A stretch of DNA of 37,189 nt from Methylacidiphilum caldifontis (GCA_945877805.1 CAMCSM010000018.1:1-37189); one strand, 5' to 3'; positions 5,046 through 21,489 are shown, counted from the first letter of the stretch. A program made the numbers and translations. The notes: a model not told the origin generated them from the sequence alone.

Positions 5046-5441
5046 TTATCGAACCTTGAGTCCGTACTTTTGATATCTCTCAATTTCTCGATCCCGGGTC
5101 AGAAGGGTATAATTGTTTTGAATCGCTTCCCAAATTAAAAGTCGATCAAAGGGATCTTTATGAATATCAACTGGAAGTCGATAAAAGGTCGAATAAACCT
5201 CTACTCCCACCTCTTTTATTTGATACCCCGCACTTTGTAACGCCTCCGGGATTTTGTCGGGGGTCGTATGCGATAACTCTAACTTTCCTATCGAATATTT
5301 AAGACTGATCTCAAAAATGGAGATCGAACTAAAAACAATCTCGTTCGACTCATCATTCAGAATCTTTAACTCTGACTGATTTAATCGCTTCGAATCAAAC
5401 AAGATCCATAACAATAATTGGGTATCCAACAAATAGATCAT
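5046..5441 (-). CDS. PIN-domain toxin, VapC type
   Basis: A 131-residue PIN-fold ribonuclease. The metal-binding acids can be placed: D6 (YLLDTQLLLW), E44 (SIFEISLK), D99 in HKDPFDRLL and D117 in LLTRDREI. The HxDPFDR motif is typical of the VapC subgroup paired with Phd/YefM-type antitoxins. Such toxins cut tRNA or rRNA when the antitoxin is lost. The ATG overlaps the antitoxin TGA by 4 bp, so the pair is translationally coupled. The protein is full length with all catalytic residues, so it is probably active. Confidence 0.92.
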   Translation of the reverse strand: MIYLLDTQLLLWILFDSKRLNQSELKILNDESNEIVFSSISIFEISLKYSIGKLELSHTTPDKIPEALQSAGYQIKEVGVEVYSTFYRLPVDIHKDPFDRLLIWEAIQNNYTLLTRDREIERYQKYGLKVR

Positions 5442-5674
5442 AATCCCAACATCTCTTCCGAAGAGATTTTAAAATCCCCGACAATACGATAGGAGGCCTT
5501 TTTCTCTAAAACCCCGACCTTTCGTTTCTTTGGTTGATACTTATGAAAAGGAACGATCACCCCTAATTTCTGATGGTTCTTCCCATACTCAATCAGAATC
5601 TCCTCGCCCCTACGAAGATCCTCAATCACACTTGAAAATTGTGCCTTCAAAAGAGCGACCGTCATGGTTTTCAT
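5438..5674 (-). CDS. Phd/YefM-like antitoxin
   Basis: About 78 residues. The N-terminal half (MTVALLKAQFSSVIEDLRRGEEI) has the Phd/YefM DNA-binding pattern; the charged C-terminal half should wrap the toxin. The open frame extends upstream to 5785, but the promoter at 5682-5710 lies inside that extension, so the start must be at 5674 (MKTM) or 5665 (MTVA). The first would sit at or next to the predicted transcription start, giving a nearly leaderless mRNA. The second has GAGGAG nine bases before it, though part of that may not be transcribed. It overlaps the PIN toxin by ATGA and is likely autoregulated through the palindrome at 5695-5711. Confidence 0.85.
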   Translation of the reverse strand: MKTMTVALLKAQFSSVIEDLRRGEEILIEYGKNHQKLGVIVPFHKYQPKKRKVGVLEKKASYRIVGDFKISSEEMLGL

Positions 5675-5681
5675 CTCCTCT

Positions 5682-5711
5682 ATTTTAAGCTTTTGTTGAC
5701 ACGTTGTCAAC
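5682..5711 (-). promoter_or_regulatory. Toxin-antitoxin promoter with overlapping operator
   Basis: On the minus strand there is a consensus -35 TTGACA (5705-5710), 17 bp, and TAAAAT (5682-5687). A perfect inverted repeat GTTGACACGTTGTCAAC (5695-5711, arms of 7 around CGT) covers the -35 box and part of the spacer, the expected place for the antitoxin to repress its own operon. The transcription start would fall near 5675, at the ATG. Confidence 0.75.
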
Positions 5712-5838
5712 AATCTCATCGATCTCATCCTTTCTCCATGGGAGATCAGGAGAAAGTCGTCAATTCCACTAAAATAAATCGCCACAGGGTAAACTTACTT
5801 CCTTGACGACTAACTCCCTTTCTCCCACGGAGAGAGTT

Positions 5839-8466
5839 ATGGCTCTCTTTGGAAATCTCTTTGGCTGGAAAGGAAACATGAGCGGTCGCTCGATTGCGAC
5901 CTATCACCCCTTTTGTGAACTCCTCCCCTATCGCGACCTGATTCAACAGATGATCGTCGATCGCTACGGATGCCTTCACGCGCTCTATGAAATCGATGCC
6001 CTCGAAATTGGGGTCGCTTCAACCGATCTCCTCATCCAACTCCAAAATTCGCTGGTCGCCGCGACCGATAAACTCCCGGAACGGGTCGTTCAACTGGAAT
6101 ATCATTTCACGACAAACGGCGATCTTGCTCCCGTCATCGAAGCCCATGGAAATTATGAATCCGATTGGGAGCTCACGGACTGGCTCCGAAAAAATCGTCG
6201 GCAACGCCTACGGGAAAAAATGCAACGTCGAGAGCTCGTTCAATCGAATACGATTCTCGTCGTTACGGTCCGACCTCCAGATCAACCCTCTCATCGTCCG
6301 ATCGATCTGCTTTCGAAAAATTCTCCCTCTCCAGATCGACTCCTCCCTCGACCCCTCAGTCATGAGGAGTTTCAAGATGCCGTTCAGCTCCATCAAATCG
6401 CTCTGAGCACTCTCTCCGATACCCTCGGCAGAGTGGGGATTCGACTCCGTGCGATGAACGATCGAGAGATCTCCGGTTATTTCTATCGGTTGATGAACCC
6501 AGACCTCGCTGTGGAGCAAGGAATCCCCCTTCACTTTGATCCTGATTCCACTCCCTTTCTCGACTCTTGGCTCTGCCACGAAATCGAACTCCACGACCGC
6601 TCTTTTCGCTGGGGAAATTATCATCACGGAATGATCTCGATGGTTGCGAAACCGATCGAGAGCCGACCCGCGGAAATCGCCCAACTCACCACCTCACTCC
6701 CTTTTTCCGATACTCGAATCACGCTCAAAGTTCGTCGTCTCGACAAACAACAAGAGATGGAATCGTTGCGGATGAAGCAGATGCTCGCCTTTGATAAATC
6801 ACAAAAATCGCCTCATGTGATCGATCAATTCATGACCCCTTATCAAAAGGAGTCCTCCAACCCCTCAATGCACTACGAAGCACAAGAGCAGATGGAAGAG
6901 GCGAATGAACTCCTTCGACTGATGCGTTCTGGCCACGAATCTCTGGTACAGATTCAACTCACGGCCCACACCTGGCATCGTGATCCGCAAGAGCTCCAAA
7001 AACGCCGTGAGATTTTAATGGGTCGAATCGCAGGCTGGAATCGGGCCCGTCCTTGGCTCGATACTTTTTCAACCCTCCCTGTTTTTTGCAATTCGCTCCC
7101 TGCTGTTTACGAGCCGTTTGAGCGCCCTTTAAAAGTGAAATCTCACATGATGGCCGATCTCGTTCCGCTCTCCAAGGGATTTGAAGGAGGAGACCCTCCT
7201 CTCGCCCTCTTGAGAAATTCCTCGCAAGGGCTGATCTCCCTCAATCTCTGGCACCTCAAAGAGACCTCTGCACCGCTCGCTTTTGTTTCCGGCGAAACCG
7301 GCTCCGGAAAAAGCGTCCTGATTCTTTACCTTCTCCTTCAACATCTTGCCCATGACAAGCCAACCGAAAACGATCCTATTCTCCTGATGCTCGATGTGGG
7401 AGGAAGTTATCGGCCCCTCATCGAACTCGCCGGTGGAGACTACATCCCCCTCGATTTCCAAAACCCGATTCTCTTTAATCCGCTCCAAGTCTATCGATTC
7501 AACGACCGTCACTCCTCCGAGCCAACACTCGAGGAACGGTCTATGATTCTCGACCAATTAATCCCAATTCTTTCCTCCCCCTCCGATCCTGAAGGAGAAC
7601 TCCCCACGCCGCTTAAAAACCTACTCAACACCGCGCTCGAACTCACCTTCAATGTCGCCGCAAAACGTCAGATCCGCTGCGTGATTCTTGATCACCTCTT
7701 TGAACAACTCGGAAAAATGGGGGCTGATACCGATCCGCTGATCGAGCGACTCCGTCCCTTTGTCACCGGAGGAGAACTGGCCGGTTGGTTTAACGGCCCG
7801 ACTCAGATCCATCTCGAAAGTCGCGCGATCTGTTTTGACCTCAAAGGGGTTCAGCAACATCCGACTCTCGCTCGCTCCTTAATTCCGATGATTATTAATC
7901 TCTATAAATCGATGATCTGGGCAAACCGTTCCGAAAGAAAAATTCTTGTTCTCGACGAGCTCTGGCAATTCCTCGAAACCCCTGCCCTCGCCGACTTTAT
8001 TCGTGAAGCCTGGAAAACCTTCCGGAAAGAAAACACAGCGATCATCGGAGGGAGTCAATCTCTTGCTGACCTCACCAAACTCCCCGCCATCGCCGATGCG
8101 ATTCTCCAAGGAACCCAAACCTGGTTTCTCCTCCCTCAAGGAAACTCCGATAACAATCGAGTCGCCGCCGAATTCCTCAGCCTCACCGAAGGACAAATCG
8201 AGCTCCTCCAACATCTTGAAAAAAAAGAGGGACTCAATCCGTTTGGTAGCTACGAGAATCACCGCGAATGCCTCCTGCTTCGTGGCAAAGGAAAAAATCA
8301 ACGCAGTGGCAAAGCCCTCATCCAACTTCAACCGGAGGAGCGCTGGATTGCGACTCTGAACCCTAAAGAGGATCAACTCCGCCGCGAAACCTTCGAACGC
8401 TTCAACCACGACCCGGTCAAAACTCTCACTTGGCTCGCCGAACAATATCCGAGGGGGATCGCATGA
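5839..8466 (+). CDS. VirB4-like type IV secretion / conjugation ATPase
   Basis: 875 residues. The N-terminal half resembles the CagE/TrbE/VirB4 N-domain. The C-terminal half is a RecA-like motor with Walker A GETGSGKS (residues 485-492), a LMLDVGGSYRPLIELAGG segment, Walker B ILVLDELWQF (D706, E707) and a later GGSQSLADL motif. VirB4 proteins drive pilus assembly and substrate transfer at the inner membrane. The frame opens at a TTG (5803), but the ATG at 5839 has GGAG six bases upstream and starts the homologous-looking MALFGNLFGW, so 5839 is preferred. The next gene overlaps by ATGA. No VirB, TraG, relaxase or integrase gene is nearby, so this is an orphan motor or part of an element that extends no further here. 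Codons favour C in third position (CTC, ATC, GAC), unlike downstream genes. Confidence 0.87.
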   Translation: MALFGNLFGWKGNMSGRSIATYHPFCELLPYRDLIQQMIVDRYGCLHALYEIDALEIGVASTDLLIQLQNSLVAATDKLPERVVQLEYHFTTNGDLAPVIEAHGNYESDWELTDWLRKNRRQRLREKMQRRELVQSNTILVVTVRPPDQPSHRPIDLLSKNSPSPDRLLPRPLSHEEFQDAVQLHQIALSTLSDTLGRVGIRLRAMNDREISGYFYRLMNPDLAVEQGIPLHFDPDSTPFLDSWLCHEIELHDRSFRWGNYHHGMISMVAKPIESRPAEIAQLTTSLPFSDTRITLKVRRLDKQQEMESLRMKQMLAFDKSQKSPHVIDQFMTPYQKESSNPSMHYEAQEQMEEANELLRLMRSGHESLVQIQLTAHTWHRDPQELQKRREILMGRIAGWNRARPWLDTFSTLPVFCNSLPAVYEPFERPLKVKSHMMADLVPLSKGFEGGDPPLALLRNSSQGLISLNLWHLKETSAPLAFVSGETGSGKSVLILYLLLQHLAHDKPTENDPILLMLDVGGSYRPLIELAGGDYIPLDFQNPILFNPLQVYRFNDRHSSEPTLEERSMILDQLIPILSSPSDPEGELPTPLKNLLNTALELTFNVAAKRQIRCVILDHLFEQLGKMGADTDPLIERLRPFVTGGELAGWFNGPTQIHLESRAICFDLKGVQQHPTLARSLIPMIINLYKSMIWANRSERKILVLDELWQFLETPALADFIREAWKTFRKENTAIIGGSQSLADLTKLPAIADAILQGTQTWFLLPQGNSDNNRVAAEFLSLTEGQIELLQHLEKKEGLNPFGSYENHRECLLLRGKGKNQRSGKALIQLQPEERWIATLNPKEDQLRRETFERFNHDPVKTLTWLAEQYPRGIA

Positions 8467-10865
8467 CCTTCTCCAAAAGTAAAAAACTAAAAACAAATTC
8501 ATTTGCCTTTTGGGAGGAGCCTTGGGGAACTTTGCGACTCTACGAAGCCCCTTCTCACCCCCGCTTCTGGTTGCCTGCCCTCAGCTCTCCAATTTGCTTC
8601 CCGTTTGTATTTGCGTTATCACGCAGGGAGTGTGTGAGACAGTGTCTTTGTCTTTATCTTTGCCTTTATCTTGGCGGTTCAATCTTTGCCTTTTCCTCTC
8701 CTCTTACCGATTTCGACAATCGCCCCGAATGGCCCGCACTCTTTAACAAAGATCGATTCCTCCCCCATCTGATCGAAACCGGCTCGCCTGCCTCCTCCTC
8801 GATTCACCGCTCCTGGCTCGAAAACGAAATCGCCCCCCTTCTCCGTCAACCGCTCTTTCTGAGCTCCCTCCGTCAATCCCTTCTCCAAGGGGATAGCGAT
8901 CTCTACGAAACGATGCTCGACTCCCTTCTCTCCCTCAACCTTCCTTCTGATTACGCGCGCGCCCATCTCATGGACTGGATCCTCGGCTCTGAGAACTCCC
9001 TTTGCTCTCCCCTCCTTCAATTCCCGACCGCTCCCGCGGTACGCACCCGTTTTGCCACCTATCTTCTGCATCACTCTCGAAACTCTGATCACACCGCTCA
9101 ACTTATTCTTAAAGCCTGTGAAACCCAAGATCCCTATCTCGAACGCCTCCTTCGAAAAAACAGCGATTCCGTTGAATCAATCGATTGGACCCTCCTTAAA
9201 CGATACCCCCAACTCTCTCCTCAAGCGCAACTGGAGTTTCGCTATCTTCTTTTTCGCGCTCATTCCAAAAAAAGAAATGACATTCACTCCCCCCATACAA
9301 ATGAAAAAAAAGAGCCCCCCTTTGCCTCCCTTCTTTGGGATCATCTCCTTAAAAAAATTGAACTTTCCCCCGTTCTTCGCAACGACTATCAAACCGGAAT
9401 CACTCAACGCAACGAGCCGGAACAATGGACACGCGAGGCCCTCACCGAGGCCCTTCGCCAAAATGAAGCGGACTCTTGGTTTCAATCCTATCTTCAAGCG
9501 GCGCAAATCCCGCACAGTCGCTATCAAGCCGTTTTTCTTGCCCTCACCCAAAACCGTGCTGAGAAAAAGGCACGCCCCGAACTCATCGCCGAATCAAGCC
9601 AAGAGCGAACCCCTTGGCGCGCTCGGCTTGTCCAACTCATTCAAAACGATCCCCGTTGGTCTGCCTACTTTCTCTGGCACCTCACTCGCGCCGCAGAACC
9701 GATCACCCTCCAATGGCGACGCTCCCTTCCCGCACTCTTCGCTCAACGAGAAACCGTCACCCTCGATTGGCTTCGATGGACTCCTCACGCTCCGACCTCC
9801 CTCTCCTCTGCTGAACTCAAAGCTTGGGGAATTCATTGGGGAGAGACCTTGCGAGATCAAGATCAGGAATGGAAAAAATTATGGAGCCATCACGATCTCG
9901 TCACTCAATCGCTTCTTCAAAAAACGCTCATTGCCTCCCTTGAATCGAACCCGACCCTCGTCACAACTTGGGTCGCCATCCTCCAGGAGCATCAACCCTC
10001 CCTTCAAAATTCCTTTGCCCTTTGGACTCAACAAAATACCCCCCACCCCGATCTCATTCATCTCCCGGTTTTTATGAATCGACTCACCGCCTCCCTCCAA
10101 CGCAAAGAGTGGGTCGGCAATCTTGATCTCGCCCTCTTTCGAGTCGCTTTCAGTAACTTCCTTCGCTCGCAAGAGGGGTGGAATCAACTCTCGTGGCGCA
10201 TCGGACTCGAATCCTATCAAATCGCGCAACCGCTCCGAGAGCTCCTCCTTCAACACTGGCGCCAACATCCAGAAAATTTCTGGAAACTTCTCAGCTGGAG
10301 AACCGTTTACTCCCCTGATCCCCAAGCCGAACAAAAACGACTGCTTTGGATTCGATCCCATAAAATTTCCGAGAAATCGCTCCTCGCCCTCTCAAAGCAA
10401 AATCCGGAGATCCAAACCGCTACCGGCTCACTCTGGCTCGATCTTTTTCAATCCAATCTCACTTTCCAAAATGCCCTGAAAAGCAAAAGAGCCACCCCCG
10501 CACAACAGGATGACCTCGATCAACTCCTCGCCTCCATTCCTTCTCTTGAAAGCCCCTCCCTAAAAACCTCCATCGAAACCCTCCTCCTTTGCGGGGGAGA
10601 TTCCGCCCTCGCCGATTGGATCCTCCGTCGCGCCGATCTTCAAAAAATTTGGATCACGCAATTCGAAACGAAACTTCTCCAAGAACCGCTTTTTCTCCAA
10701 CAAATGACCGAATCTCTTTTGAAAGAGAAACAGCTCTCCCCCGATTCCTTATCGGAACTCATTACCCTTCTCCTCGAAGATCGTTACCTCTTCGAAACCG
10801 TTCTTTCCGATCCCACCCTCGGATTTAAAACAGCAACCTCCACTCCTCACTGCCCTTCGGATTGA
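8463..10865 (+). CDS. Large helical-repeat protein coupled to VirB4-like ATPase
   Basis: Not recognised. 800 residues, coupled to the ATPase by an ATGA overlap, which fixes the start at 8463. After residue 90 the protein is strongly helical, rich in Leu, Gln, Arg and Trp, with recurring units of the form LLxxPLFLxxxxxSLL (LLRQPLFLSSLRQSLL and LLQEPLFLQQMTESLL) and many NPxL/DPxL turns, suggesting an alpha-solenoid. Near residues 48-80 lies a Cys/Leu-rich hydrophobic segment encoded by a dispersed repeat (8620-8682); it could act as signal or membrane anchor. An in-frame GTG at 8634 preceded by AGGGAG is an alternative start that would give a short signal peptide. Context suggests a partner of the motor, perhaps on the envelope side; this is inference. 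Confidence 0.7.
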   Translation: MTFSKSKKLKTNSFAFWEEPWGTLRLYEAPSHPRFWLPALSSPICFPFVFALSRRECVRQCLCLYLCLYLGGSIFAFSSPLTDFDNRPEWPALFNKDRFLPHLIETGSPASSSIHRSWLENEIAPLLRQPLFLSSLRQSLLQGDSDLYETMLDSLLSLNLPSDYARAHLMDWILGSENSLCSPLLQFPTAPAVRTRFATYLLHHSRNSDHTAQLILKACETQDPYLERLLRKNSDSVESIDWTLLKRYPQLSPQAQLEFRYLLFRAHSKKRNDIHSPHTNEKKEPPFASLLWDHLLKKIELSPVLRNDYQTGITQRNEPEQWTREALTEALRQNEADSWFQSYLQAAQIPHSRYQAVFLALTQNRAEKKARPELIAESSQERTPWRARLVQLIQNDPRWSAYFLWHLTRAAEPITLQWRRSLPALFAQRETVTLDWLRWTPHAPTSLSSAELKAWGIHWGETLRDQDQEWKKLWSHHDLVTQSLLQKTLIASLESNPTLVTTWVAILQEHQPSLQNSFALWTQQNTPHPDLIHLPVFMNRLTASLQRKEWVGNLDLALFRVAFSNFLRSQEGWNQLSWRIGLESYQIAQPLRELLLQHWRQHPENFWKLLSWRTVYSPDPQAEQKRLLWIRSHKISEKSLLALSKQNPEIQTATGSLWLDLFQSNLTFQNALKSKRATPAQQDDLDQLLASIPSLESPSLKTSIETLLLCGGDSALADWILRRADLQKIWITQFETKLLQEPLFLQQMTESLLKEKQLSPDSLSELITLLLEDRYLFETVLSDPTLGFKTATSTPHCPSD
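8620..8682 (+). repeat. Dispersed repeat family B, copy 2, inside a gene
   Basis: CTTTGT, CTTTAT, CTTTGC and CTTTAT units followed by CTTGGCGGTT, the same core as at 3431-3470 and (inverted) 15525-15564. The left part, GTGTGAGACAG, resembles the GTGTGAGACAGG end at 15706-15716. It lies in frame in the 800-residue protein and encodes its only strongly hydrophobic stretch. Confidence 0.6.
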
Positions 10866-10922
10866 GGCTCATTGGCCGATGGACTAATTGGCTATTGGGT
10901 TTAAGCCAGTTTTTGCATTTTT

Positions 10923-10947
10923 TATCACCATTTTGGTGATATCTTTT
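10923..10947 (+). terminator. Hairpin after the VirB4-like operon
   Basis: Perfect 8-bp stem TATCACCA / TGGTGATA (10923-10930, 10934-10941) with a 3-nt loop, followed by TCTTTT. It lies 58 bp past the stop of the 800-residue protein. The stem is AT-rich and the T-tract short, so termination would be weak. Confidence 0.5.
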
Positions 10948-11022
10948 GAGAGGTAAACCGATTCCTATTGCATGATCTGGGTTAAATTGACGACTCGAGG
11001 GGGGATCTCCCAAGGCAATTGA

Positions 11023-11532
11023 ATGACTATCCCTCTTCAAGACTCTCCAAACAGATTCAGCAACCCTCGTCACCTCCTCCTGCTCCTTTTTCTTCATTTC
11101 TTCATCTCCTGTTCAAACACCCCTTATCGACAGAACGAATCGATGACCCGCCAAGCCACCGATGGGGCGGTGCGTTATGGCTCGATTGCGGGAGGGGGAG
11201 CGGCCGGCTATTTTGCCGGAAAAGAGATCGGCGGAAGCCCCGAAGCCGGAATCGCCGGGGCCGCGATCGGCACCGGATTAGCCTACGGACTGAATAAATT
11301 CTACGACAAAAAAAGAGAGGATGCTTTCGAAAAAGGGAAACAGATCGGAGCCGAAGAGGCCCGTGCCGAACAACTCAACGAAACATGGAAACGGGAGGCA
11401 ATCTATGGAATCAAAGAGAACGGAATCGGAAAAACCAATCCCTCCTACCGGACCGTTTATATCCCCTCACGGACCGTCGATGGGGTGAAACAGAACGGAC
11501 AATACCAAACCGTTAAAACCTATCGTCAATAA
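11023..11532 (+). CDS. Glycine-zipper lipoprotein candidate
   Basis: 169 residues. A basic start and Leu-rich core end in FISC (C30), a near-lipobox (Phe at -3 is unusual), so it is probably a lipoprotein. Residues about 50-90 form a glycine-zipper-like segment (GSIAGGGAAGYFAGKEIGG, then GIAGAAIGTGLAYGLNKFY), seen in outer-membrane and pore-associated lipoproteins. The C-terminal part is charged and soluble. AAGG lies nine bases before the ATG. It follows the VirB4-like operon by 157 bp across a hairpin, so it may or may not belong to it. Small glycine-zipper lipoproteins occur in secretion systems, but no specific family is recognised. Confidence 0.75.
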   Translation: MTIPLQDSPNRFSNPRHLLLLLFLHFFISCSNTPYRQNESMTRQATDGAVRYGSIAGGGAAGYFAGKEIGGSPEAGIAGAAIGTGLAYGLNKFYDKKREDAFEKGKQIGAEEARAEQLNETWKREAIYGIKENGIGKTNPSYRTVYIPSRTVDGVKQNGQYQTVKTYRQ

Positions 11533-11697: not shown

Positions 11698-12888
11698 ATG
11701 TCATTGATTCAGGAATCCGATTTACTCGTGATTGGAGCAGGAGCTGCGGGGCTCTTCTGTGCCTCGGTGGCCGGGGGGCTGGGCTCTTCTGTGACCGTTC
11801 TCGAGCGAAATGAACGAGTGGGGATGAAGATTCTCATCTCAGGAGGGGGGCGCTGTAATTTTACAAATCTTGGGGCTGGGCCGAAAAACTATCTCTCCTC
11901 GAGCCCCAATTTCTGTAAGTCCGCACTTGCGCGCTATCGACCGACCGATTTTATCTCCTTAGTGAATAAACATCAGATCGCCTACCATGAAAAAAAACTG
12001 GGACAACAGTTCTGCGATGATAACTCCCGGAAAATCGTCGATCTTCTTTTGTCGGAATGCGCAGCGGCTAAGGTTAAAATTGAATGTGGGGTCAAAGTCG
12101 ATGCCGTCGAAAAAAAGGACTGTTTTGAGGTTCAAACTTCCCAAGGACTTTATCGTGCAAAATCATTGGTCATTGCCACGGGGGCTCTCTCCTTTCCGAA
12201 ATTGGGGGCGACCGATTTTGCCTATCGAATCGCTCGGCAATTTGGAATTCCATTAACGACGACCGTTCCCGGGTTAGTTCCCCTCACTTTCTCCGATCCT
12301 GAATTACGGTTGATGTGTGATCTTTCCGGATTATCGCTTCCCGTTAAAATCACTCACGGAAAACAGTTTTTCTTGGATGATCTGCTTTTCACCCATCGTG
12401 GGCTCAGTGGTCCTGCCGCTTTGCAAATCTCCTCTTATGCAAAACCGGGGGAGGAAATTGAAATTGATCTTTTGCCAGGGCTGAATGCCGCAGAATGGTT
12501 AGCGGAAAAACATCAAGATCGAACACAACTTTCGACCGTTCTAGGGAGTAAGCTGCCGACTCGTTTAGCAAAGGCTTGGGTGGAGCGACTGAAGATTGCG
12601 GCTCCGATCGGACAGATTGGCAGTCGTCGACTTCGAGAAATTGGCACGGAACTGAATCGCTGGAAATTGATCCCGACAGGAACCGAGGGCTACCCAAAAG
12701 CAGAGGTGACAGTAGGGGGCATTGACACGGAGGCAATCTCCTCGAAGAGAATGGAGAGTCGAACGGTGGCGGGACTTTATTTTATTGGCGAGGCGTTGGA
12801 TGTCACCGGACATCTTGGCGGCTACAATTTCCAATGGGCTTGGGCCTCCGGTTATGCCGCAGGAACCGCCGTGGGGAATCCAAAATAA
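11698..12888 (+). CDS. HI0933/YhiN-like FAD-dependent oxidoreductase
   Basis: 396 residues. The N-terminus has a Rossmann dinucleotide motif (VIGAGAAGLFCA) and VLERNERVGMKILISGGGRCNFTN, the signature of the HI0933/YhiN flavoprotein family. The C-terminus has the second FAD motif with GLYFIGEALDVTGHLGGYNFQWAWASGYAAG. Length matches the family (about 400). The physiological substrate of this family is not firmly known. The frame opens at a GTG (11671), but MSLIQESDLLVIGAG at 11698 gives the usual short lead to the Rossmann fold. The GH5 gene starts 1 base after the stop, so the two are probably cotranscribed although unrelated in function. Confidence 0.9.
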   Translation: MSLIQESDLLVIGAGAAGLFCASVAGGLGSSVTVLERNERVGMKILISGGGRCNFTNLGAGPKNYLSSSPNFCKSALARYRPTDFISLVNKHQIAYHEKKLGQQFCDDNSRKIVDLLLSECAAAKVKIECGVKVDAVEKKDCFEVQTSQGLYRAKSLVIATGALSFPKLGATDFAYRIARQFGIPLTTTVPGLVPLTFSDPELRLMCDLSGLSLPVKITHGKQFFLDDLLFTHRGLSGPAALQISSYAKPGEEIEIDLLPGLNAAEWLAEKHQDRTQLSTVLGSKLPTRLAKAWVERLKIAAPIGQIGSRRLREIGTELNRWKLIPTGTEGYPKAEVTVGGIDTEAISSKRMESRTVAGLYFIGEALDVTGHLGGYNFQWAWASGYAAGTAVGNPK

Positions 12889-12889
12889 A

Positions 12890-13945
12890 ATGATCTCGCT
12901 TAATCCACTCTCGCTCCTGCTCCCTTTTTTCAGCCTCCTTTTTTTTGTAGGGCTCTCCTCGATGAGCTTCGCGAGCGATCAGAGCTCCTTTCCTGATATC
13001 TTTCGCCAATCCTACCTCCTTGAGCAAGGGGTCAATTTGGGGAATGCCCTGGAGGCCCCTCAGGAAGGGGATTGGGGAATCAGGCTCGAAGAGCGCTACT
13101 TCGATTTAATCAAGGCGGCCGGATTTAAAACCGTTCGCCTCCCGGTTCGTTGGTCGGCACATGCTCAGGAAATCCCCCCTTATACGATTGATCCCGCTTT
13201 TTTCGAACGGATCGACTGGGCGATCGATACTGCGACCGAGCGAGGGCTCAATATCGTGATTAATCTGCATCATTTCGATGAGCTATTCAAAACCCCTTCG
13301 GTTCATGAGCCGCGCTTTTTCGCCATCTGGGCGCAAATTTCCGCTCGTTACCAGAATCGTCCTGCAAACCTTCTTTTCGAATTGTGTAACGAGCCGCACG
13401 ATATCGATTCGGCTCGATGGAATCAAATGATCCTGGAGGTTCTTCCAATCATCCGATCGACCAATCCGCGGAGGGGAATTATCATCGGTGGAACCGATTG
13501 GAATTCACTGAAAAAACTAGCGGAGCTAAAACTTCCGGAGTCGGACCGCTTTCTTATTGGAACCTTTCATCTCTATGCCCCTTTAAAGTTCACTCACCAA
13601 GGGGCAGAATGGATTCCTGGAAGCAAGGCTTGGCTGGGAACTCAATGGCTCGGATCAAGTGAGGAGAAGGAGTCTATTCGCATCGAGCTCGATCACGCGG
13701 TTGATTGGTGGGAAAAGAATCGAAGGCCGATTTGGATCGGCGAATTTGGCTCCTATTCAAAAGCAGGTCTTCCCTCGCGCTGTCGATGGACCGAGTTCAT
13801 CGTTCGCGAGTGTGAATGGCGACATCTCCCTTGGGCCTATTGGGAATTCGGTGCCGGCTTCGGCCTCTACGATCGACTCCAAAAAAAGTGGAATCTTCTG
13901 CTGCTACGGGCTCTCTTCCCATTTTTTGCATTTCCTAAAGTCTAA
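12890..13945 (+). CDS. Secreted GH5 family glycoside hydrolase
   Basis: 351 residues with a signal peptide (Leu/Phe-rich core ending SMSFA before SDQSS). The GH5 TIM-barrel signposts appear in order: GVNLGNALEAP, VRLPVRWSAHA, INLHHFDEL, the acid/base LFELCNEPH (E168) and the nucleophile PIWIGEFGSY (E285). Enzymes of this type cut beta-1,4-linked glucans or mannans; the exact substrate cannot be read from sequence. The start at 12890 follows the previous stop (12888) directly; the longer frame from 12722 overlaps the flavoprotein and is rejected because it would bury the signal peptide. It is exported, fitting the other hydrolases in the window. Confidence 0.92.
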   Translation: MISLNPLSLLLPFFSLLFFVGLSSMSFASDQSSFPDIFRQSYLLEQGVNLGNALEAPQEGDWGIRLEERYFDLIKAAGFKTVRLPVRWSAHAQEIPPYTIDPAFFERIDWAIDTATERGLNIVINLHHFDELFKTPSVHEPRFFAIWAQISARYQNRPANLLFELCNEPHDIDSARWNQMILEVLPIIRSTNPRRGIIIGGTDWNSLKKLAELKLPESDRFLIGTFHLYAPLKFTHQGAEWIPGSKAWLGTQWLGSSEEKESIRIELDHAVDWWEKNRRPIWIGEFGSYSKAGLPSRCRWTEFIVRECEWRHLPWAYWEFGAGFGLYDRLQKKWNLLLLRALFPFFAFPKV

Positions 13946-13965
13946 AACCTGGGTATGATCTACGT

Positions 13966-15528
13966 ATGAGTTCCTCTTTTCAACGAAGTTTTGCGTTGGC
14001 AGGGGCTGCTCTCTTTTTAGGGTTTCTGCTTTGTTGTGCCTGTGCCCCGGAATGGAGAGTGAATCCACAATATGGTTATGGCTGGTTTGTTCCCTTGATC
14101 CTTTTTTATTTGCTCTTGGTTCGCTTGCGAGAGTTTTCCGAGCAGGAGTCCCCTCCCCGATTAAGGAGCTCAACCGTGGCGATGGTCGGGGGATTACTTT
14201 TGCTCGCATTAGCGGTGGAGTGGACTCGACTTCAACATCCGCCGATGCGGTTGATCATGGGGATGCAAGGGGGGATTTGGTTTCTTTTCCTGATTTTCGC
14301 GTGGAGAGATTTTTCGATCGGAGTTCGTCGGGGGATGCTCTTTCCGGCGCTTTTACTTTTGACGGTGATTCCATGGCCGACCCGAATCGAGGAGCCGTTG
14401 ACGCGAGCCTTGATGTCGTGGGTGACGGGGATTGCGATGGAGTTGATCCACTTTGCGGGGATTGCGTCGCGCCGCGAGGGGGAGTTGATTATTTTGTCCA
14501 ATGGAGTTGTGGGGGTCAGTGAGGCTTGTAGTGGGATTCGGTCGTTGCAGGCCGCTTTTGTTTTTTCGCTGATATTAGGGGAGTGGCGTCAGGGGTCGAT
14601 CACGAGAAGAGGGGAGCTTTTTTTGGTGGGGATTGGATTGGCGCTGTTGGGAAATCTTCTGAGGACCTTGGGGCTTTGTGGGATCGCCTCTTTTTATGGA
14701 ATGGAGTCGATGGAGCGATGGCACGATTTTTCAGGGAATCTATTATTGATGACGATCATGGGAGGATTAGTGGGGTGGAGTTTTTGGCGAATCCGACAAC
14801 AGGAGCGAGAGGGGAGTGAGCAGGAGCTGGGAGCGGCGCTGAGGAGATTAGGGCATCATCGTTGCGTGGGGATGACGGTTATTTTGATGCTGGCGCTCTG
14901 TCTCTTGGGGGGGATGCGCGGAGCTGTTTATTTTCAGCAAAAAGCGGAGGGAGTGGAGAGTTCTCCTTCAGTTCAATGGATCCGATCGGAGGGGGATCGA
15001 ACTTTGGGGATCACCTCGGAGGTTTGGAGGAATTTGCGTTGTCATTCAGGGGAGTGGATTGAGCGTCAGGGGGAGGGAATCGATTTTGAGAAAATGGAGT
15101 TTTACCGTTTTTATTGGAAACCGATTCGAGACTCACAAGGGGTGCGGTTGCATCGACCGGATTGGTGTATGAAAGGGTTGGGATGGAAGCGCGTGGGGGA
15201 ACCGATCGCAGGGGAGATGGAGGTAGAGGGAGGGAAACTGCACGGATATTGGATTCACTATCGGAAGCCGGGGGGGGAGGCGATTCAATTTTGGACCTTG
15301 CTTCGAAATCAGGAGCGAGTGGAGGTCGATTTTAATACGGCGTCATTAGTCGAGGAGATGAGTTTGCGCACTTTTTTAATTCCTCGGGAGGAGCGTTCGA
15401 GTTGGGAGATGATTTCGCTGGTGGTTTCGAGTCCCTGGATGGTTCCGGAGCAGAAGCAGGTGGAGGAGATCGGGAGAAAGAGAATCCAGAAAATTTCTCT
15501 AAGGGAGGCAGGAAAGCAGGAAAATTAA
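13966..15528 (+). CDS. Exosortase fused to EpsI-like domain
   Basis: 520 residues. The first 290 residues carry about eight membrane segments with the exosortase catalytic residues: C188 in SEACSGIRSLQ, R233 in NLLRTLGL and H253 in RWHDFSGN. Exosortases process proteins with a C-terminal PEP-CTERM-like tail at the inner membrane. The last 200 residues form an EpsI (DUF3485)-like domain with LHRPDWCMKGLGW, fused here rather than separate. It starts 20 bp after the GH5 stop. No protein in the window has a recognisable PEP-CTERM tail, so the substrates lie elsewhere. The stop codon coincides with the start of a family B repeat. A run of eight G (15270-15277) lies in the EpsI part. Confidence 0.92.
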   Translation: MSSSFQRSFALAGAALFLGFLLCCACAPEWRVNPQYGYGWFVPLILFYLLLVRLREFSEQESPPRLRSSTVAMVGGLLLLALAVEWTRLQHPPMRLIMGMQGGIWFLFLIFAWRDFSIGVRRGMLFPALLLLTVIPWPTRIEEPLTRALMSWVTGIAMELIHFAGIASRREGELIILSNGVVGVSEACSGIRSLQAAFVFSLILGEWRQGSITRRGELFLVGIGLALLGNLLRTLGLCGIASFYGMESMERWHDFSGNLLLMTIMGGLVGWSFWRIRQQEREGSEQELGAALRRLGHHRCVGMTVILMLALCLLGGMRGAVYFQQKAEGVESSPSVQWIRSEGDRTLGITSEVWRNLRCHSGEWIERQGEGIDFEKMEFYRFYWKPIRDSQGVRLHRPDWCMKGLGWKRVGEPIAGEMEVEGGKLHGYWIHYRKPGGEAIQFWTLLRNQERVEVDFNTASLVEEMSLRTFLIPREERSSWEMISLVVSSPWMVPEQKQVEEIGRKRIQKISLREAGKQEN

Positions 15529-15564
15529 CCGCCAAGGTAAAGGCAAACAACGCCAAGAAAGGCT
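15525..15564 (-). repeat. Dispersed repeat family B, copy 3
   Basis: TTAACCGCCAAGGTAAAGGC followed by AAACAACGCCAAGAAAGGC; its reverse complement closely matches 3431-3470. The TTAACC end contains the TAA stop of the exosortase gene (15526-15528). Confidence 0.65.
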
Positions 15565-15568
15565 AATC

Positions 15569-15595
15569 GACTGTGGGGCTGATGGGAGGAGGTGA
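15569..15595 (+). repeat. Dispersed repeat family C, copy 1
   Basis: GACTGTGGGGCTGATGGGAG followed by GAGGTGA. The reverse complement of 19761-19786 reads GACTGTGGGGCAGATGGGGG followed by AGGTGA, so the two differ by a few positions and one indel over 27 bp. Neither lies in a gene. Confidence 0.65.
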
Positions 15596-15632
15596 CGACT
15601 CGCAAGGGGTCTAATCCTAGCCTAAAACAAAT

Positions 15633-15728
15633 CTCACACCAAGACACTAAAACACAAAGTTTTGTTCAGGGATAAATGCCTTTTCCTTTGCGTCTTTGGG
15701 CCTTCGTGTGAGACAGGTATTCAATGCC
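15633..15728. repeat. Imperfect long hairpin, family B-related
   Basis: The left arm 15633-15659 (CTCACACCAAGACAC, then TAAAACACAAAG) pairs imperfectly with the right arm 15686-15712 (CTTTGCGTCTTTGG, then GCCTTCGTGTGAG) across 26 nt. The right end AGACAGGTATTCAATGCC (15711-15728) recurs as AGACAGGTATTGAATGTC at 19713-19730, differing at two positions. It looks like a short mobile palindromic element. Confidence 0.6.
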
Positions 15729-15734
15729 TTTAAC

Positions 15735-15796
15735 CCGTGTTCATCAGCGTCCATCCGCGGTTAAAATGGTTTTGAATTGTGCTGATCAGCGGTTCC
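15735..15796 (+). repeat. Dispersed repeat family A, copy 1 (plus a shortened copy)
   Basis: 15735-15766 reads CCGTGTTCATCAGCGTCCAT followed by CCGCGGTTAAAA; 15779-15796 (GTGCTGATCAGCGGTTCC) looks like an internally deleted copy in the same orientation. Related copies are at 22155-22187, 23251-23284, 23361-23393 and 35098-35131. When translated it yields the VHQRPSAV stretch that falsely extends the GH2 frame. Confidence 0.65.
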
Positions 15797-15855
15797 TTTT
15801 TCTGTATCGTTATTTGTCTTATCGACGGGATATGGTAGCTTTCTTTAAGGCTTGC

Positions 15856-18789
15856 ATGAATAAAGCGATTTTAGGCTTATGGATGGGTCTTGTTTGCTGC
15901 GGCTTTGCAGAGCAGGGAGGGAGTGAGAAAGTCGCTCCGCTTCGGGAGCGTTTATTGATGGATGAGGGATGGCGGTTTTGGATTGGAAAAGGGGAGACGG
16001 GGGAGAAAAGTACGGCGAGTGGATCGACGATTGATCCGTATCAAACTTTCGGTTCTTATTCAAAAACAGGATGGGCCGGGGGCCAAAATCAGTCGGTCTC
16101 TCCCGCAGGGGCTCGGTTCGATGATTGGGGCTGGCGTCAGGTCGATCTCCCCCACGACTGGGCGGTGGAATTACATTTTACGGAGCAAGGGGATGTGGGA
16201 CATGGCTGTAAGATGATTGGACCACAATTTCCGATCACTTCGGTGGCCTGGTACCGTCGTTCATTTACGGTTCCAAAATCGGATGAGAAACGGAAGATTT
16301 CGATAGAGTTTGATGGGGTCTATCGAGATTGTGAGGTTTATCTTAATGGACATTATCTGGGACGAAATTTTAGTGGGTATGCCCCTTTTGCTTTTGATCT
16401 CTCACCTTATCTGAATTATGGGAAAACAAATTCACTAGCGTTAAAGGTCAATGCGACAGGATTTGAGGGATGGTTTTATGAGGGGGCAGGAATTTATCGT
16501 CACGTCTGGCTTGTGAAGCATGCACCGATGCATATCACTCAATGGGGGACCACGGTCAGGAGTGAGATTCAAGATCAAGATGCGGAGGTGACGATTCTGA
16601 CGGAGGTTAAAAATAGTCAGGAGAAACGGGGGCGAGTGGCGGTGAGAAGTCGACTTCTCGATGCCAAGGGAGCGGAGGTTGGATCAAGGCGATCGGATTC
16701 CGTTTGGATTGAGGCGGGGGAGTCGAGAGAGATCAAGCAGCGGATCGATCTGGATGAGGTCCAGCTCTGGTCGTTGGAAGATCCTTATTTGTATCACGTT
16801 GAAAATACGATTTTGCTTGATGGGGTGGCGGTCGATCAGACGCGGACTCCCTTTGGTTTTCGAACGATCCGGTTTGATGCCGAGAAAGGATTTTTTCTGA
16901 ATGGGAAGCGGCTCTTTATTCGCGGGACCTGCAATCATCAAGATCATGCGGGGTTAGGAGTGGGATTGCCGGATCGCGTGAATGAATGGCGCTTGGAGCG
17001 ATTGAAAGAGATGGGGTGTAATGCCTATCGCAGTGCGCATCATCCACCGACCCCTGAGATATTAGAGATTTGCGATCGACTGGGGATCATGGTGATGGAT
17101 GAGACGAGAACGGTGGGGGCGACGGAGGAGGCGCTGTCGCAACTCGATCGATTGATCCGTCGTGATCGGAATCATCCTTCGGTAATTCTTTGGTCGTTGG
17201 GAAATGAGGAGATGGAAATTCAAGGAACGACAGTCGGAAAGAAGATTCTCGAAAAAATGAATCAACTGACGAAGCGATTGGATCCGACGCGTCCGACAAC
17301 GATCGGAATGAATGGGCAATGGGGGAAAGGGTTCTCGGAGGTTGTGGACGTGCAAGGGGGAAATTATATGAAGTCTGGAAAGGGCTTCGATCATTTTCAT
17401 CAGAATTATCCGAAGATGCCGGTGATTGGATCTGAGGAGTACAGTGCGACGACGACGCGGGGGGTCTATGAGAATGATGAGAAGCGACAGTATGTGCATG
17501 CCGATGAGATGAAGTCGGTGCAGCCGAACTGGGCAAGTCCAGCAGAGGAGTGGTGGAATTACTATCGTGAGCGACCGTTTATGGCAGGAGGATTTGCGTG
17601 GACCGGATTTGATTATCGAGGGGAGCCGACGCCGTATCATTTTTGGCCGAGTATTAGCTCTCATTTTGGGATTATGGATACGTGTGGATTTGCGAAAGAT
17701 GTTTTCTACTATTATCAATCGTGGTGGGGAAATAAACCAGTTTTGCATCTGCTTCCACACTGGAATTGGCCGGGGAAAGAGGGGGAATCGATCGAGGTTC
17801 GCTGTGATGGAAATGCTGAGGAGGTGGAGCTATTTTTAAATCAGAAGAGTCTCGGTCGAAAAGCGATGCCTCCCCATCGCCATCTCACCTGGCAGGTCGC
17901 TTACACCCCAGGGACATTAATAGCGAAAGGGTATACGGGAGGAAAAGAGGTGAGTACGGAAAAAATAGAAACCACGGGAGAGGCCGTGGCCGTTCGCTTG
18001 TTGCCCGATCGAAAAACGATCGCTGCGGATGGGGAGGACGTAACGATGGTGACCGTTGCCGTTACTGATGAGAGGGGGAGCGCGGTTCCTACGGCAGGAA
18101 ACCAGATTTTTTTTGAAATCGAAGGGGAGGGGAAAATTATTGGGGTCGGGAATGGAGATCCCGGCTGTCATGAACCAGATCAATATGTCGAGGAGCTCCC
18201 TCGCTCTGCGAATGTCGAGGAGTGGAAGGTGAAGAAATTAGGGAAGAAAGGATTTGATCTTAAAGAGCTTGAGCTCACGGTTTTAGGTGAGGAGTGGGAG
18301 GAGGCCTATTTTAATCATGAGCGAATGTTGATTCAGGAAAAGAAGGGTCAAGTAGTCTACCGGGGGGAGATTAAATTAAATCCAACGCTTTTAGAGAGGA
18401 GTGAGGCAAATCTTCATTTAGGTCCGATTGAGGGAAAAAGTTATCTTTTCGTGGAGGGAAAGTTGATCGGAAAGTTTGAGCCGGGTCATATTCGATCTGT
18501 AGTGCCGGCTTCGCTGCTTCAAAAAGAGAAAGCCGTTGTCTACGTCGTGGTGACGGCAACTGAAGAGAGCGGAGGGATGTTGAAAGGGGGGAAGATGGTT
18601 TTCCGTCCTACCGATCGGTTGCCATGGAAGCGGAGTTTATTTAACGGACTGGCTCAAGTGATTGTGAAGTCGACAAAGCAGTCGGGGGAGATTCGATTAA
18701 AAGGGATCGCTCACGGATTGTCCGTGAGTGAGGTCCAAATTCGATCCCGTGCAGTGACCCCGCGGCCTTTTGTAAAAGCCGATTACTAA
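15856..18789 (+). CDS. Secreted GH2 family hydrolase (beta-galactosidase-like)
   Basis: 977 residues. A signal peptide (MNKAILGLWMGLVCCGFA) is followed by the GH2 sugar-binding jelly-roll domain (to about residue 230), an immunoglobulin-like domain, and the TIM barrel with IRGTCNHQDHAG, YRSAHHPP, acid/base E451 (SLGNEE) and nucleophile E528 (IGSEEYS). After the barrel come a DUF4982-like domain and an Ig-like domain (DRKTIAADGEDVTMVTVAV); a further jelly-roll-like segment interrupts the C-terminus. It should release beta-linked sugars, probably galactose, from oligosaccharides outside the cytoplasm. The frame opens at 15724, but those residues come from a dispersed repeat. The ATG at 15856 has AAGG six bases upstream; 15832 is an alternative. 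Confidence 0.9.
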   Translation: MNKAILGLWMGLVCCGFAEQGGSEKVAPLRERLLMDEGWRFWIGKGETGEKSTASGSTIDPYQTFGSYSKTGWAGGQNQSVSPAGARFDDWGWRQVDLPHDWAVELHFTEQGDVGHGCKMIGPQFPITSVAWYRRSFTVPKSDEKRKISIEFDGVYRDCEVYLNGHYLGRNFSGYAPFAFDLSPYLNYGKTNSLALKVNATGFEGWFYEGAGIYRHVWLVKHAPMHITQWGTTVRSEIQDQDAEVTILTEVKNSQEKRGRVAVRSRLLDAKGAEVGSRRSDSVWIEAGESREIKQRIDLDEVQLWSLEDPYLYHVENTILLDGVAVDQTRTPFGFRTIRFDAEKGFFLNGKRLFIRGTCNHQDHAGLGVGLPDRVNEWRLERLKEMGCNAYRSAHHPPTPEILEICDRLGIMVMDETRTVGATEEALSQLDRLIRRDRNHPSVILWSLGNEEMEIQGTTVGKKILEKMNQLTKRLDPTRPTTIGMNGQWGKGFSEVVDVQGGNYMKSGKGFDHFHQNYPKMPVIGSEEYSATTTRGVYENDEKRQYVHADEMKSVQPNWASPAEEWWNYYRERPFMAGGFAWTGFDYRGEPTPYHFWPSISSHFGIMDTCGFAKDVFYYYQSWWGNKPVLHLLPHWNWPGKEGESIEVRCDGNAEEVELFLNQKSLGRKAMPPHRHLTWQVAYTPGTLIAKGYTGGKEVSTEKIETTGEAVAVRLLPDRKTIAADGEDVTMVTVAVTDERGSAVPTAGNQIFFEIEGEGKIIGVGNGDPGCHEPDQYVEELPRSANVEEWKVKKLGKKGFDLKELELTVLGEEWEEAYFNHERMLIQEKKGQVVYRGEIKLNPTLLERSEANLHLGPIEGKSYLFVEGKLIGKFEPGHIRSVVPASLLQKEKAVVYVVVTATEESGGMLKGGKMVFRPTDRLPWKRSLFNGLAQVIVKSTKQSGEIRLKGIAHGLSVSEVQIRSRAVTPRPFVKADY

Positions 18790-18815
18790 TCGGGAGAAAA
18801 GGGAGAAAAATAAAA

Positions 18816-19460
18816 TTAGACGGAAATCAATCCCACCTTAATCGCATATCGTGTCAAACTCGCGATATCATGGATATTCAACTTTTTCATAATATTACTC
18901 CGGTGATTATCCACCGTCTTAATACTCAATGTTAAAATCACCGCAATTTCCTTCGTGCTGTGACCTTCCGCAACCAACTGCAAAATCTCCCGCTCCCGAT
19001 GCGTTAACATCCCCTCATCCGCCGTCGGATTTGCTACCGCATTCCTTAATAGATTTGCGACACAAGGTCCAAAATAACTTCCCCCGTCTGCCACTTGATG
19101 CACCGACTGCCGCAAAAGCTCGATCGTCGCATTTTTCTCAATAAATCCATGAGCTCCCGCTTTCAAAACCCCACGAACAGCCTCCTCAGATGGATGCCCT
19201 GAGATCACCAAAATACGTACTTCTGGACGCTCTCGAAGAAATTGACGAAGTAAATCGATTCCATTCAATCCAGGAAGCATTAAATCCAAGATCACTAAAT
19301 CTGGCTTGAGAGCAGAAAAACTCTCCAACGCCTCACGTCCATCCCCTGCATTGCCGACAATTTCAAATCGTGGATCTTGAACAATCAAACGAGCCAACAG
19401 CTCACGAAACATCGTTTGATCATCAACAATAAGAACTCGAATTTTTGCAATTTCACTCAT
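18816..19460 (-). CDS. NarL/FixJ-type response regulator
   Basis: 214 residues. The receiver domain has D13/D14 and phospho-acceptor D59 (LVILDLMLPG), with a conserved Lys in HGFIEKN. The C-terminal LuxR helix-turn-helix (LTHREREILQLVAEGHSTKEIA, with KTVDNHRSNIMKKL) binds DNA. The frame extends to 19526, but MSEIAKIRVLIVDD at 19460 gives the usual start just before the first strand. There is no partner kinase in the window. The gene is convergent with the GH2 gene, 26 bp apart, and stands alone. Target genes are unknown. Confidence 0.93.
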   Translation of the reverse strand: MSEIAKIRVLIVDDQTMFRELLARLIVQDPRFEIVGNAGDGREALESFSALKPDLVILDLMLPGLNGIDLLRQFLRERPEVRILVISGHPSEEAVRGVLKAGAHGFIEKNATIELLRQSVHQVADGGSYFGPCVANLLRNAVANPTADEGMLTHREREILQLVAEGHSTKEIAVILTLSIKTVDNHRSNIMKKLNIHDIASLTRYAIKVGLISV

Positions 19461-19689
19461 AATTTTATCTAGGTAATTTCCCCAAAAATAGAGCCAGACA
19501 TTAAATTTAGCAACCCTATTTATCAATAAATAACTACCTACATAAATCGGTCAAAGATCGAAACCAAGGATTTATCTCTAATGAAACCATTTTTCCCTCC
19601 ATTCCCATGGCATTGAATTCCGATTTATGAATTTTTAAAATACAGGGCAGTGCCTTCCTCACCTGGAAGAATCTCCTCTTTTTTAAACG

Positions 19690-19730
19690 CTGCGTCTCTG
19701 CGTCGCTGCGGGAGACAGGTATTGAATGTC
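19690..19730 (+). repeat. Dispersed repeat family B-related end, copy 5
   Basis: CTGCGTCTCTGCGTCGCTGC, then GGGAGACAGGTATTGAATGTC. The right part matches the right end of the hairpin element at 15633-15728, and the left part has the same CTTTGCGTCT-type beginning. Confidence 0.55.
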
Positions 19731-19760
19731 TTTTTCTCGCTCTCCGAATATTCCGCTATT

Positions 19761-19786
19761 TCACCTCCCCCATCTGCCCCACAGTC
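19761..19786 (-). repeat. Dispersed repeat family C, copy 2
   Basis: Reverse complement of this stretch matches 15569-15595 (GACTGTGGGGC, GATGGG and AGGTGA blocks). Here it lies on the opposite strand and on the other side of the GAGACAGGTATT element than at 15.6 kb. Confidence 0.6.
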
Positions 19787-19795
19787 CACGCTTAG

Positions 19796-19830
19796 TCCGC
19801 CGTAGTCCCGCAGCGCGGGACGAAGGTGGA
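19796..19830. repeat. Palindromic repeat D
   Basis: 35 bp with inner arms GTCCCGC / GCGGGAC (perfect, 3-nt loop) and outer arms TCCGCC / GGTGGA with one imperfect pair, separated by GTA / GAA bulges. The general form (CCGCC...GAAGG.GG) is one I recall from intergenic DNA of PVC bacteria; I cannot cite a source. It lies just past the 3' end of the HTTM-like gene and could also end its transcription. Confidence 0.55.
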
Positions 19831-19859
19831 TCAGCCGATGAGCCTCTCGTTGCAATTCT

Positions 19860-20816
19860 CTACTTGAAAAACCGAGAGAGAATCGCCGGGGCAAACGGGA
19901 GGTTTCGGATCATCGATCTCAGATGAAAGCCCTCCCCGGCAAAAGGAGAGCAGCCAAAAAAGAGGAGAAGAATCAAAACACTTTGCGGAAAAATAATCGT
20001 AAAGGTGAAATAGGAAAAAATATGAAAGAGAGCAACCCCTATCCCCCAAGCCCGATGCCATACCGGACGTGCCACAAACCAAAGGGAGGCAAATTGCAGA
20101 TAAACTGAACCCAATAAAAAGAGCCAACTCGGATAGGGATGAGAGACAAACCAGGGGCCAAAAAGACTTTGTGTGTTTGTTTGTAAAAGTCGCTCCGCAA
20201 CCATATAGGCCATCGCTTGTGGATGAAGGGCACTCATTTCCCCATTCCACAGATGCAATATCGTCCCCCCCAACTTCCCAATTCCAGCCATCGTATAGGT
20301 CACTCCAATTAAAAGCTGCATCGCGACAAAAATCTGGATCACACGCTGTCTCCCCCCTCTGCCCTGATTCACAGCAGGAAGAAAAATGAAAACAAAAGAG
20401 ATTAAAACCCAATGATGAAGACTATGGCCAATTTTCCCAAAGGAATTATTAAAGGCGGCAAAAAAGAAAAATCCGAGAAAAGCCCATACCCTTGCCCCTC
20501 GACTCTGAGGAAATACAAACCCGATCACCGATCCGCTTAACCACAACACTAAGACCGACAAGACCCCTTCCCTTTGCTCCATCAAAGAGATCCATGAGAC
20601 AGGCCAAAGGAGATCGGCCTTTCCCCGTCCGAGATAACTATGCCACTCCGGAAGCTGAAAGGCCGCGAACATCACCATCACGGCATAAAAGGCCCGAATT
20701 AAAATCTGGATATGCTGAAACTCCCTCGTTTGCCGATGAAAGATCGAGAGGAGATTCTCGCGAGAACTCTCCCCGGCGAAAAAAATTCGAATTTTCTTCA
20801 ATTGAATCGATTTCAT
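19860..20816 (-). CDS. HTTM-like polytopic membrane protein
   Basis: 318 residues with six to eight membrane segments and conserved-looking polar spots (AAFNNSFGKIGHSLHHWVL, and VTYTMAGIGKLGG). This arrangement resembles HTTM (vitamin K-dependent gamma-carboxylase-related) membrane proteins of bacteria, whose function is mostly unknown; the match is by general pattern and not certain. The ATG overlaps the TGA of the upstream 156-residue protein, so the two are made together and probably act together. Three repeats (B, C, D) follow the gene. Confidence 0.65.
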   Translation of the reverse strand: MKSIQLKKIRIFFAGESSRENLLSIFHRQTREFQHIQILIRAFYAVMVMFAAFQLPEWHSYLGRGKADLLWPVSWISLMEQREGVLSVLVLWLSGSVIGFVFPQSRGARVWAFLGFFFFAAFNNSFGKIGHSLHHWVLISFVFIFLPAVNQGRGGRQRVIQIFVAMQLLIGVTYTMAGIGKLGGTILHLWNGEMSALHPQAMAYMVAERLLQTNTQSLFGPWFVSHPYPSWLFLLGSVYLQFASLWFVARPVWHRAWGIGVALFHIFSYFTFTIIFPQSVLILLLFFGCSPFAGEGFHLRSMIRNLPFAPAILSRFFK

Positions 20817-21283: not shown

Positions 21284-21329
21284 AGTCCCTAGTAAACGTC
21301 AAAAACCTCTTCCAATCAACTCTTATGAT

Positions 21330-21346
21330 GGTTCTGTTGCAAAAAT
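21330..21346 (+). other. Solitary IS6-type terminal-repeat-like sequence
   Basis: GGTTCTGTTGCAAAAAT resembles, from memory, the terminal inverted repeat of IS6-family elements such as IS257/IS1216 (GGTTCTGTTGCAAAG...). No transposase and no matching opposite end were found nearby, so it may be a relic or chance. Confidence 0.25.
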
Positions 21347-21489
21347 CATAAATGAGGGCACGGTGAGGTGCAAGGGGTAAAATTTATCGAAAATGTTTCG
21401 GGATTTTTGTGACTCAACAAAGCATGTTTACTGAAGCAGAGGAATGAGTGTATTGAGTTCATCGGGTAGCGATATGGGGTTCAAGGTCA

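Follow-up and report, generated by a model that had tools for sequence, protein, structure and literature searches.

The window, that is, the whole 37,189-bp stretch of DNA analysed here, makes up all of contig C18 in the draft genome (2.94 Mb, 96% complete) of a lake bacterium. Three successive genes on its plus strand form the locus of interest: a VirB4-type ATPase gene, a gene for a large helical protein (P0002), and a gene for a small lipoprotein (P0003) (Table 1). The intact motor with both Walker motifs and its overlap with a large downstream gene, as described in the original prediction, are borne out by the open reading frames, the virB4 stop codon and the P0002 ATG sharing 4 bp (8463-8466). 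The ATPase matches Pfam P-loop_TraG (6.7e-28), NCBIfam TraC-F-type (TIGR02746, 2e-44) and VirB4_CagE (TIGR00929, 8e-43), both NCBIfam scores lying under the curated cut-offs; in the PDB it matches the VirB4 chains 4ag5 and TrwK 7o41. This VirB4 occurs in one copy only in the window's genome, on C18, and full-length orthologues are found in 17 further genomes of the same order.

The glycine-zipper lipoprotein proposed at the outset likewise holds up: P0003 matches NCBIfam YiaD_Gzip (4e-4), a lipobox scan places a lipobox-like Cys at residue 30, and homologues occupy the equivalent position in genomes of families f1 and f8. Compared with two congeners, dN/dS is 0.04-0.06 for VirB4, 0.19-0.20 for the helical protein and 0.06-0.20 for the lipoprotein, with internal stops absent. 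Because purifying selection acts on all three, these ratios mark the trio as genuine conserved genes rather than chance open reading frames.

Table 1. Features of the virB4 locus, numbered from the first nucleotide of the window
Feature	Position	Strand	Basis
virB4/traC-type ATPase (P0001), 875 aa	5839..8466	+	Pfam, NCBIfam and PDB matches; orthologues across the order
Walker A of VirB4, GETGSGKS, residues 485-492	7291..7314	+	Sequence; G-GSGKS invariant in the VirB4 alignment
Walker B of VirB4, ILVLDE, residues 702-707	7942..7959	+	Sequence; VirB4 alignment
P0002, ~800 aa, all-helical, probably a periplasmic T4SS-associated subunit	8463..10865	+	Linkage; signal-like N-terminus; AlphaFold models
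P0003, Gly-zipper lipoprotein, 169 aa, 3' of P0002	11023..11532	+	YiaD_Gzip match; lipobox scan; position in relatives

Walker B differs between lineages. In the aligned Methylacidiphilaceae rows (L036-L046) its Asp is changed to Gly (FGEMW), while the Glu is kept and Walker A is intact; unlike these proteins, the window's VirB4 keeps the DE pair. The substitution may be relevant to activity. Further along the window, positions 12722-29014 form a polysaccharide and cell-surface gene island, in which an exosortase EpsH family protein (13966-15528) is encoded near glycoside hydrolases of families GH5, GH2 and GH106. At 30568-32000 and 35193-37187 are genes for two proteins that carry an N-terminal methylation motif, as in pseudopilins, and for an autotransporter-like protein with PATR repeats, which runs off the contig end.

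P0002 is tightly linked to virB4. A homologue lies directly 3' of virB4 in 17 of the 18 genomes with full-length VirB4 (families f1, f7, f8 and f9); the exception is G021, where P0002 is not detected although VirB2, VirB3 and VirB4 are present. The homologue search thus divides the idea that the helical protein always sits beside a VirB4 gene: the pair is conserved, and P0002, as far as homology detection goes, is not universal to VirB4 carriers. Neither Pfam, NCBIfam, PADLOC nor the PDB sequences contain a match to the 800-residue protein, and AlphaFold models show helices only, at pLDDT 68 for the window's protein and 79 for a Methylacidiphilum orthologue. Foldseek comparison of these two models with the PDB gave no match at E<=0.001. 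The description of an unplaceable gene therefore stands, and identity with VirB5, VirB6 or another known subunit was rejected on the same sequence and fold searches. In an even sample of 388 genomes across the phylum, the VirB4 clade and P0002 are confined to the order. P0002 is also absent from 72,556 plasmids, and a phage origin was rejected, as no relative occurs in viral contigs.

The examined homologues begin with a hydrophobic, signal-like segment, which in most exceeds any later stretch in hydrophobicity. Together with the linkage to virB4, this N-terminus suggests that P0002 is probably a new lineage-specific subunit, with a predicted location in the periplasm, at the VirB5/VirB6 position of the operon. 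Such a placement resembles "expanded" type IV secretion systems (T4SSs), which recruit extra subunits (PMC12857230).

The original prediction noted that relaxase, coupling protein, VirB6/8/9/10/11 and integrase are all missing from the window, and searches of its 37,189 bp agree: none of these, VirD4 included, was found there. The label of orphan VirB4 does not survive extension of the search to the rest of the genome, where the other parts lie on other contigs. In relatives from other genera, one or two virB2-like genes and a virB3-like gene usually lie ahead of virB4; profiles built from these virB4 neighbourhoods of relatives and run against the window's genome find two VirB2 genes and a VirB3 gene on C59 (VirB3 E 9e-15, VirB2 2e-13). 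Family matches of these proteins are weak (TrbC 1e-4, TraL 0.06), and their assignment draws on two-TM architecture, B2-B3-B4 order and the own-genome profile matches. VirB10 is on C7 (PF03743 above cut-off, in 16 of 16 genomes), preceded by two genes called VirB8-like and VirB9-like on gene order and architecture: the VirB9 family match is weak (0.19), VirB8/VirB9 profile comparisons are not significant, and F-type TraE/TraK-like rows from relatives are collinear with them at non-significant profile-profile scores. The VirD4 coupling ATPase, encoded with a small membrane partner on C3, scores above cut-off for its families (PF02534/PF10412/PF12696; PF10412 4.8e-14, PF02534 4.7e-12). On C91 a VirB6-like gene (PF04610 1.3e-4, under cut-off) follows a VirB5-like gene and is linked to it and to an ATPase gene, of GspE/PilB type, which on C116 comes directly after the 3' end of a VirB6-like gene.

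In the window's genus these clusters sit on separate contigs, several with unrelated host genes at their flanks (e.g. nuo-subunit-like genes beside VirB10; hisF-like and TPR genes beside VirB2), so the dispersal is not due to assembly fragmentation alone. On this distribution, the apparently orphan VirB4 is best described as part of a complete T4SS dispersed across its genome. The trio too has host genes on both sides and no mobility gene, which does not support the suggestion that it is the edge of an element lying outside. PIN/antitoxin-type pairs flank the virB3/virB4 break in the genus, beside virB4 in the window (5046-5785, minus strand) and after virB3 in G002 (L074:4364-5094).

A reduced motor, solenoid and lipoprotein machine, serving export or defence independently of any T4SS, was the other reading first offered, and in the window's genome the trio does stand alone on its contig. 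That reading is very hard to maintain, since all other T4SS parts are present in the same genome, the trio lies inside the T4SS block of relatives, and PADLOC gives only distant matches for P0001 (best mad8, 9e-14) and none for P0002 or P0003. The finding of VirB2, VirB3, VirB10 and VirD4 on other contigs led to rejection of an orphan or three-part machine, and the PADLOC matches, which are distant and of VirB4/HerA type, to rejection of a known defence system. In the relatives examined, the pair has conserved neighbours: VirB2/VirB3-like genes upstream and, in Methylacidiphilum, a full T4SS block. Homologues of the helical protein do occur inside a full T4SS cluster, the outcome named beforehand as damaging to a separate machine; the part of that outcome which would make it a known component does not apply.

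Four complete Methylacidiphilum genomes, including SolV, Kam1 and V4 (G014 (SolV), G023, G027 and G038 (V4)), carry the full set from VirB5-like to P0003 in one block of ~35 kb, with identical gene order and identical host genes on both sides. Passages of earlier papers report a 45-kb "integrative plasmid" in Methylacidiphilum (PMC2474590, PMC6688271), given for V4 as the "potential integrative plasmid" Minf_1153-1199 (PMC2474590) and placed at the same site in all three strains compared (PMC6688271). In V4, PqqE (about Minf_1237; PQQ cluster Minf_1233-1237) is at 1,159,335 and P0003 at 1,126,866; the PqqE position and the 40 ORFs between put Minf_1199 near P0003. The published element is in all likelihood the T4SS locus, by interpolation rather than by accession. 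The searched passages of those papers contain no description of a secretion system, whereas the present reading is of a core machine, dispersed in another family.

The question is then whether the locus is an integrated resident plasmid, an integrative and conjugative element (ICE) or a remnant of one, as the published label implies. The interpolated overlap with Minf_1153-1199 and the presence of ParB together with T4SS genes at the candidate locus speak for it. Features of mobility such as a variable site or patchy spread are not what is seen: the site is the same in four genomes, three of them matching the published strains and the fourth agreeing, and in family f1 the genes are dispersed. 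In the VirB4 and P0002 trees the rows group by family and genus, following host taxonomy, with long branches limiting the deep nodes. In the window's genus the genes are scattered yet kept under strong purifying selection. The genome-wide relaxase search covered two families, PF03432 and TrwC: PF03432 gave no hit above cut-off in 16 genomes, and TrwC relaxases appeared only in four genomes, each of which has F-type T4SS elements besides, separate from this locus, and so acts as a positive control. No relaxase match was found among the Pfam-scanned locus proteins either. The nearest plasmid VirB4, from Myxococcus stipitatus pYRE (L169), is 23% identical; pYRE has a similar layout, in which ParB and a TraM-recognition protein accompany a small group of B2-B3-B4 genes, but without P0002. 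A plasmid or ICE is accordingly improbable, having been rejected on synteny, on the trees and on the absence of the relaxases searched. Order restriction, taxonomy-following trees, the absence of PF03432 and TrwC, and the absence of P0002 from plasmids and viral contigs instead characterize the locus, at the level of comparative genomics, as a domesticated, chromosomal and vertically inherited T4SS.

The ATPase in the VirB11 place, a class that is not universal among T4SSs, matches PF00437 (2.6e-84) and belongs to the GspE/PilB subtype, with its CxxC zinc motif. In each of the four complete Methylacidiphilum genomes it is the sole PF00437 (T2SSE) ATPase and lies inside the T4SS locus, and these whole genomes yielded no second ATPase of the type IV pilus or T2SS kind; in other families the gene is linked to VirB6 or near VirB4. 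With no T2SSE protein beside it in the four genomes, it probably serves the T4SS, most likely in the role of VirB11, and it could have another role. That it is a type IV pilus motor is disfavoured, as no further T2SSE protein occurs there.

Clues to the substrate come from two Methylacidiphilum genomes, V4 and SolV, the only ones in which HNH/SUKH pairs were observed. Within the V4 block, the stretch G038:C1:1099882-1106300 (L146:2-6300, minus strand) encodes a long protein with an HNH-like motif followed by immunity-type SUKH (SMI1/KNR4) genes and truncated HNH copies in a tandem array; SolV has one HNH/SUKH pair (G014:C1:1342397-1344903, L121) within the T4SS block or next to it. HNH is assigned here from the motif; Pfam gave no match. 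A further locus gene, K32, is present in all four genomes (L121:13785-14486, minus; L146:6336-7028, minus; L149:13896-14591, minus; L122:4838-5557, plus), and its C-terminal ~110 residues are common to the V4 HNH protein. The antibacterial T4SS effectors of Xanthomonadales have a common C-terminal domain behind differing N-terminal parts and are accompanied by immunity genes. By analogy, the HNH-motif proteins with SUKH genes are possible polymorphic-toxin effectors, and the C-terminal domain shared with K32 is a candidate secretion signal.

These pairs and the common domain favour antibacterial effector delivery, which, taken on its own as the function of the T4SS, is evenly poised between right and wrong; the system may thus be a weapon against other bacteria. 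A domesticated conjugation apparatus exchanging cellular DNA, by import or export without a relaxase, is the competing proposal. It would account for the occurrence of VirB4, VirB2 pilins and a TraM-recognition domain in VirD4 where no PF03432 or TrwC relaxase was found, and it has a precedent in the archaeal Ced system, a chromosomal domesticated conjugation system moving cellular DNA (PMC9905601). The HNH/SUKH pairs within the locus point instead to protein effectors, a complete set of parts that spans the envelope and includes VirD4 and VirB10 is reminiscent of exporters, and the Pfam scan of locus proteins revealed no gene for DNA processing, which leaves DNA exchange as a minor, though real, possibility. 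Effector delivery is placed ahead of it as roughly twice as probable, a preference that rests on Methylacidiphilum rather than on the window's lineage. Another reading is a pilus that no longer translocates anything and works solely in attachment or biofilm; two VirB2-like pilins, VirB3, VirB4 and an ATPase would be enough for pili. It is rather improbable, since most members keep a conserved VirD4-type coupling protein, which is not required for pilus assembly (PMC12857230).

The reading preferred here, which is likely although far from certain, is that these three genes encode the motor end of a T4SS that is complete, chromosomal and passed on vertically within the Methylacidiphilum order of Verrucomicrobiota, with P0002 as scaffold or stalk, P0003 as anchor and effectors as the likeliest substrates. 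The parts, which we infer assemble into one complex, would be two VirB2 pilins, VirB3, VirB4, VirB5/6/8/9-like proteins, VirB10, a VirD4-type protein with a separate membrane partner, and a hexameric GspE/PilB-type ATPase. P0002 would be exported to the periplasm as a lineage-specific helical subunit of the channel, and P0003 would be an outer-membrane lipoprotein in a VirB7/TrbH-like role. VirD4 would recruit the substrate, VirB4 and the PilB-type ATPase would supply the energy for handling pilins and for translocation, and the substrate would cross the envelope through the VirB6/8/9/10 channel with P0002 and P0003. The likeliest substrates would be antibacterial nuclease toxins that bear the C-terminal signal, have SUKH proteins as their immunity partners and are delivered to neighbouring cells.

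Set against known systems, this is a variant of the T4SS that had gone unrecognised and that includes new parts, not a new kind of machine. With canonical Gram-negative T4SSs (VirB/D4, Trb, F-type) it has in common VirB2, VirB3, VirB4, VirB10, VirD4, VirB5/6/8/9-like proteins and a VirB11-class ATPase, as well as the gene orders B2-B3-B4 and B8-B9-B10. It differs in the extra ~800-residue, predicted periplasmic helical subunit after VirB4, in a GspE/PilB-subtype ATPase instead of VirB11 proper, in that a PF03432 or TrwC relaxase was not found, and in being chromosomal, vertically inherited and, in the window's lineage, scattered. The X-T4SS of Xanthomonadales is chromosomal, relaxase-free and antibacterial, with effector/immunity genes and a common C-terminal signal domain. 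The present system is similar in being chromosomal and, for the families PF03432 and TrwC, relaxase-free, with candidate effector/immunity genes and a C-terminal domain common to two proteins, and differs in having P0002 and the PilB-type ATPase; the domain of the V4 HNH protein and K32 is not known to be related to XVIPCD. Archaeal Ced/Ted systems are likewise conjugation machinery domesticated on the chromosome (PMC9905601), whereas here there is a diderm envelope with VirB10 and VirD4. The T4SSs of Patescibacteria are also chromosomal, co-opted and relaxase-lacking (PMC12102498); they are of the monoderm MPF-FATA type, in contrast to the VirB10 and candidate outer-membrane lipoprotein here. 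The fullest version of the proposal, an order-wide, vertically inherited antibacterial T4SS of Verrucomicrobiota with a novel ~800-residue periplasmic helical subunit, a PilB-type ATPase replacing VirB11, and nuclease toxins that carry a new signal at the C-terminus and have SUKH immunity partners, functional though scattered, is tentative and falls somewhat short of being probable.

An apparent published "integrative plasmid" of acidophilic methanotrophs is thereby reinterpreted as a core, ancient secretion machine. The T4SS parts list gains a new large subunit family, P0002, and the locus offers a case of a T4SS that seems to use a PilB/GspE-type ATPase. It is also a warning that a VirB4 which looks orphaned in a draft genome may come from a complete machine with dispersed genes. 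Methylacidiphilum strains can be cultivated, so that in Verrucomicrobiota competition with other bacteria, or exchange of DNA, could be tested directly.
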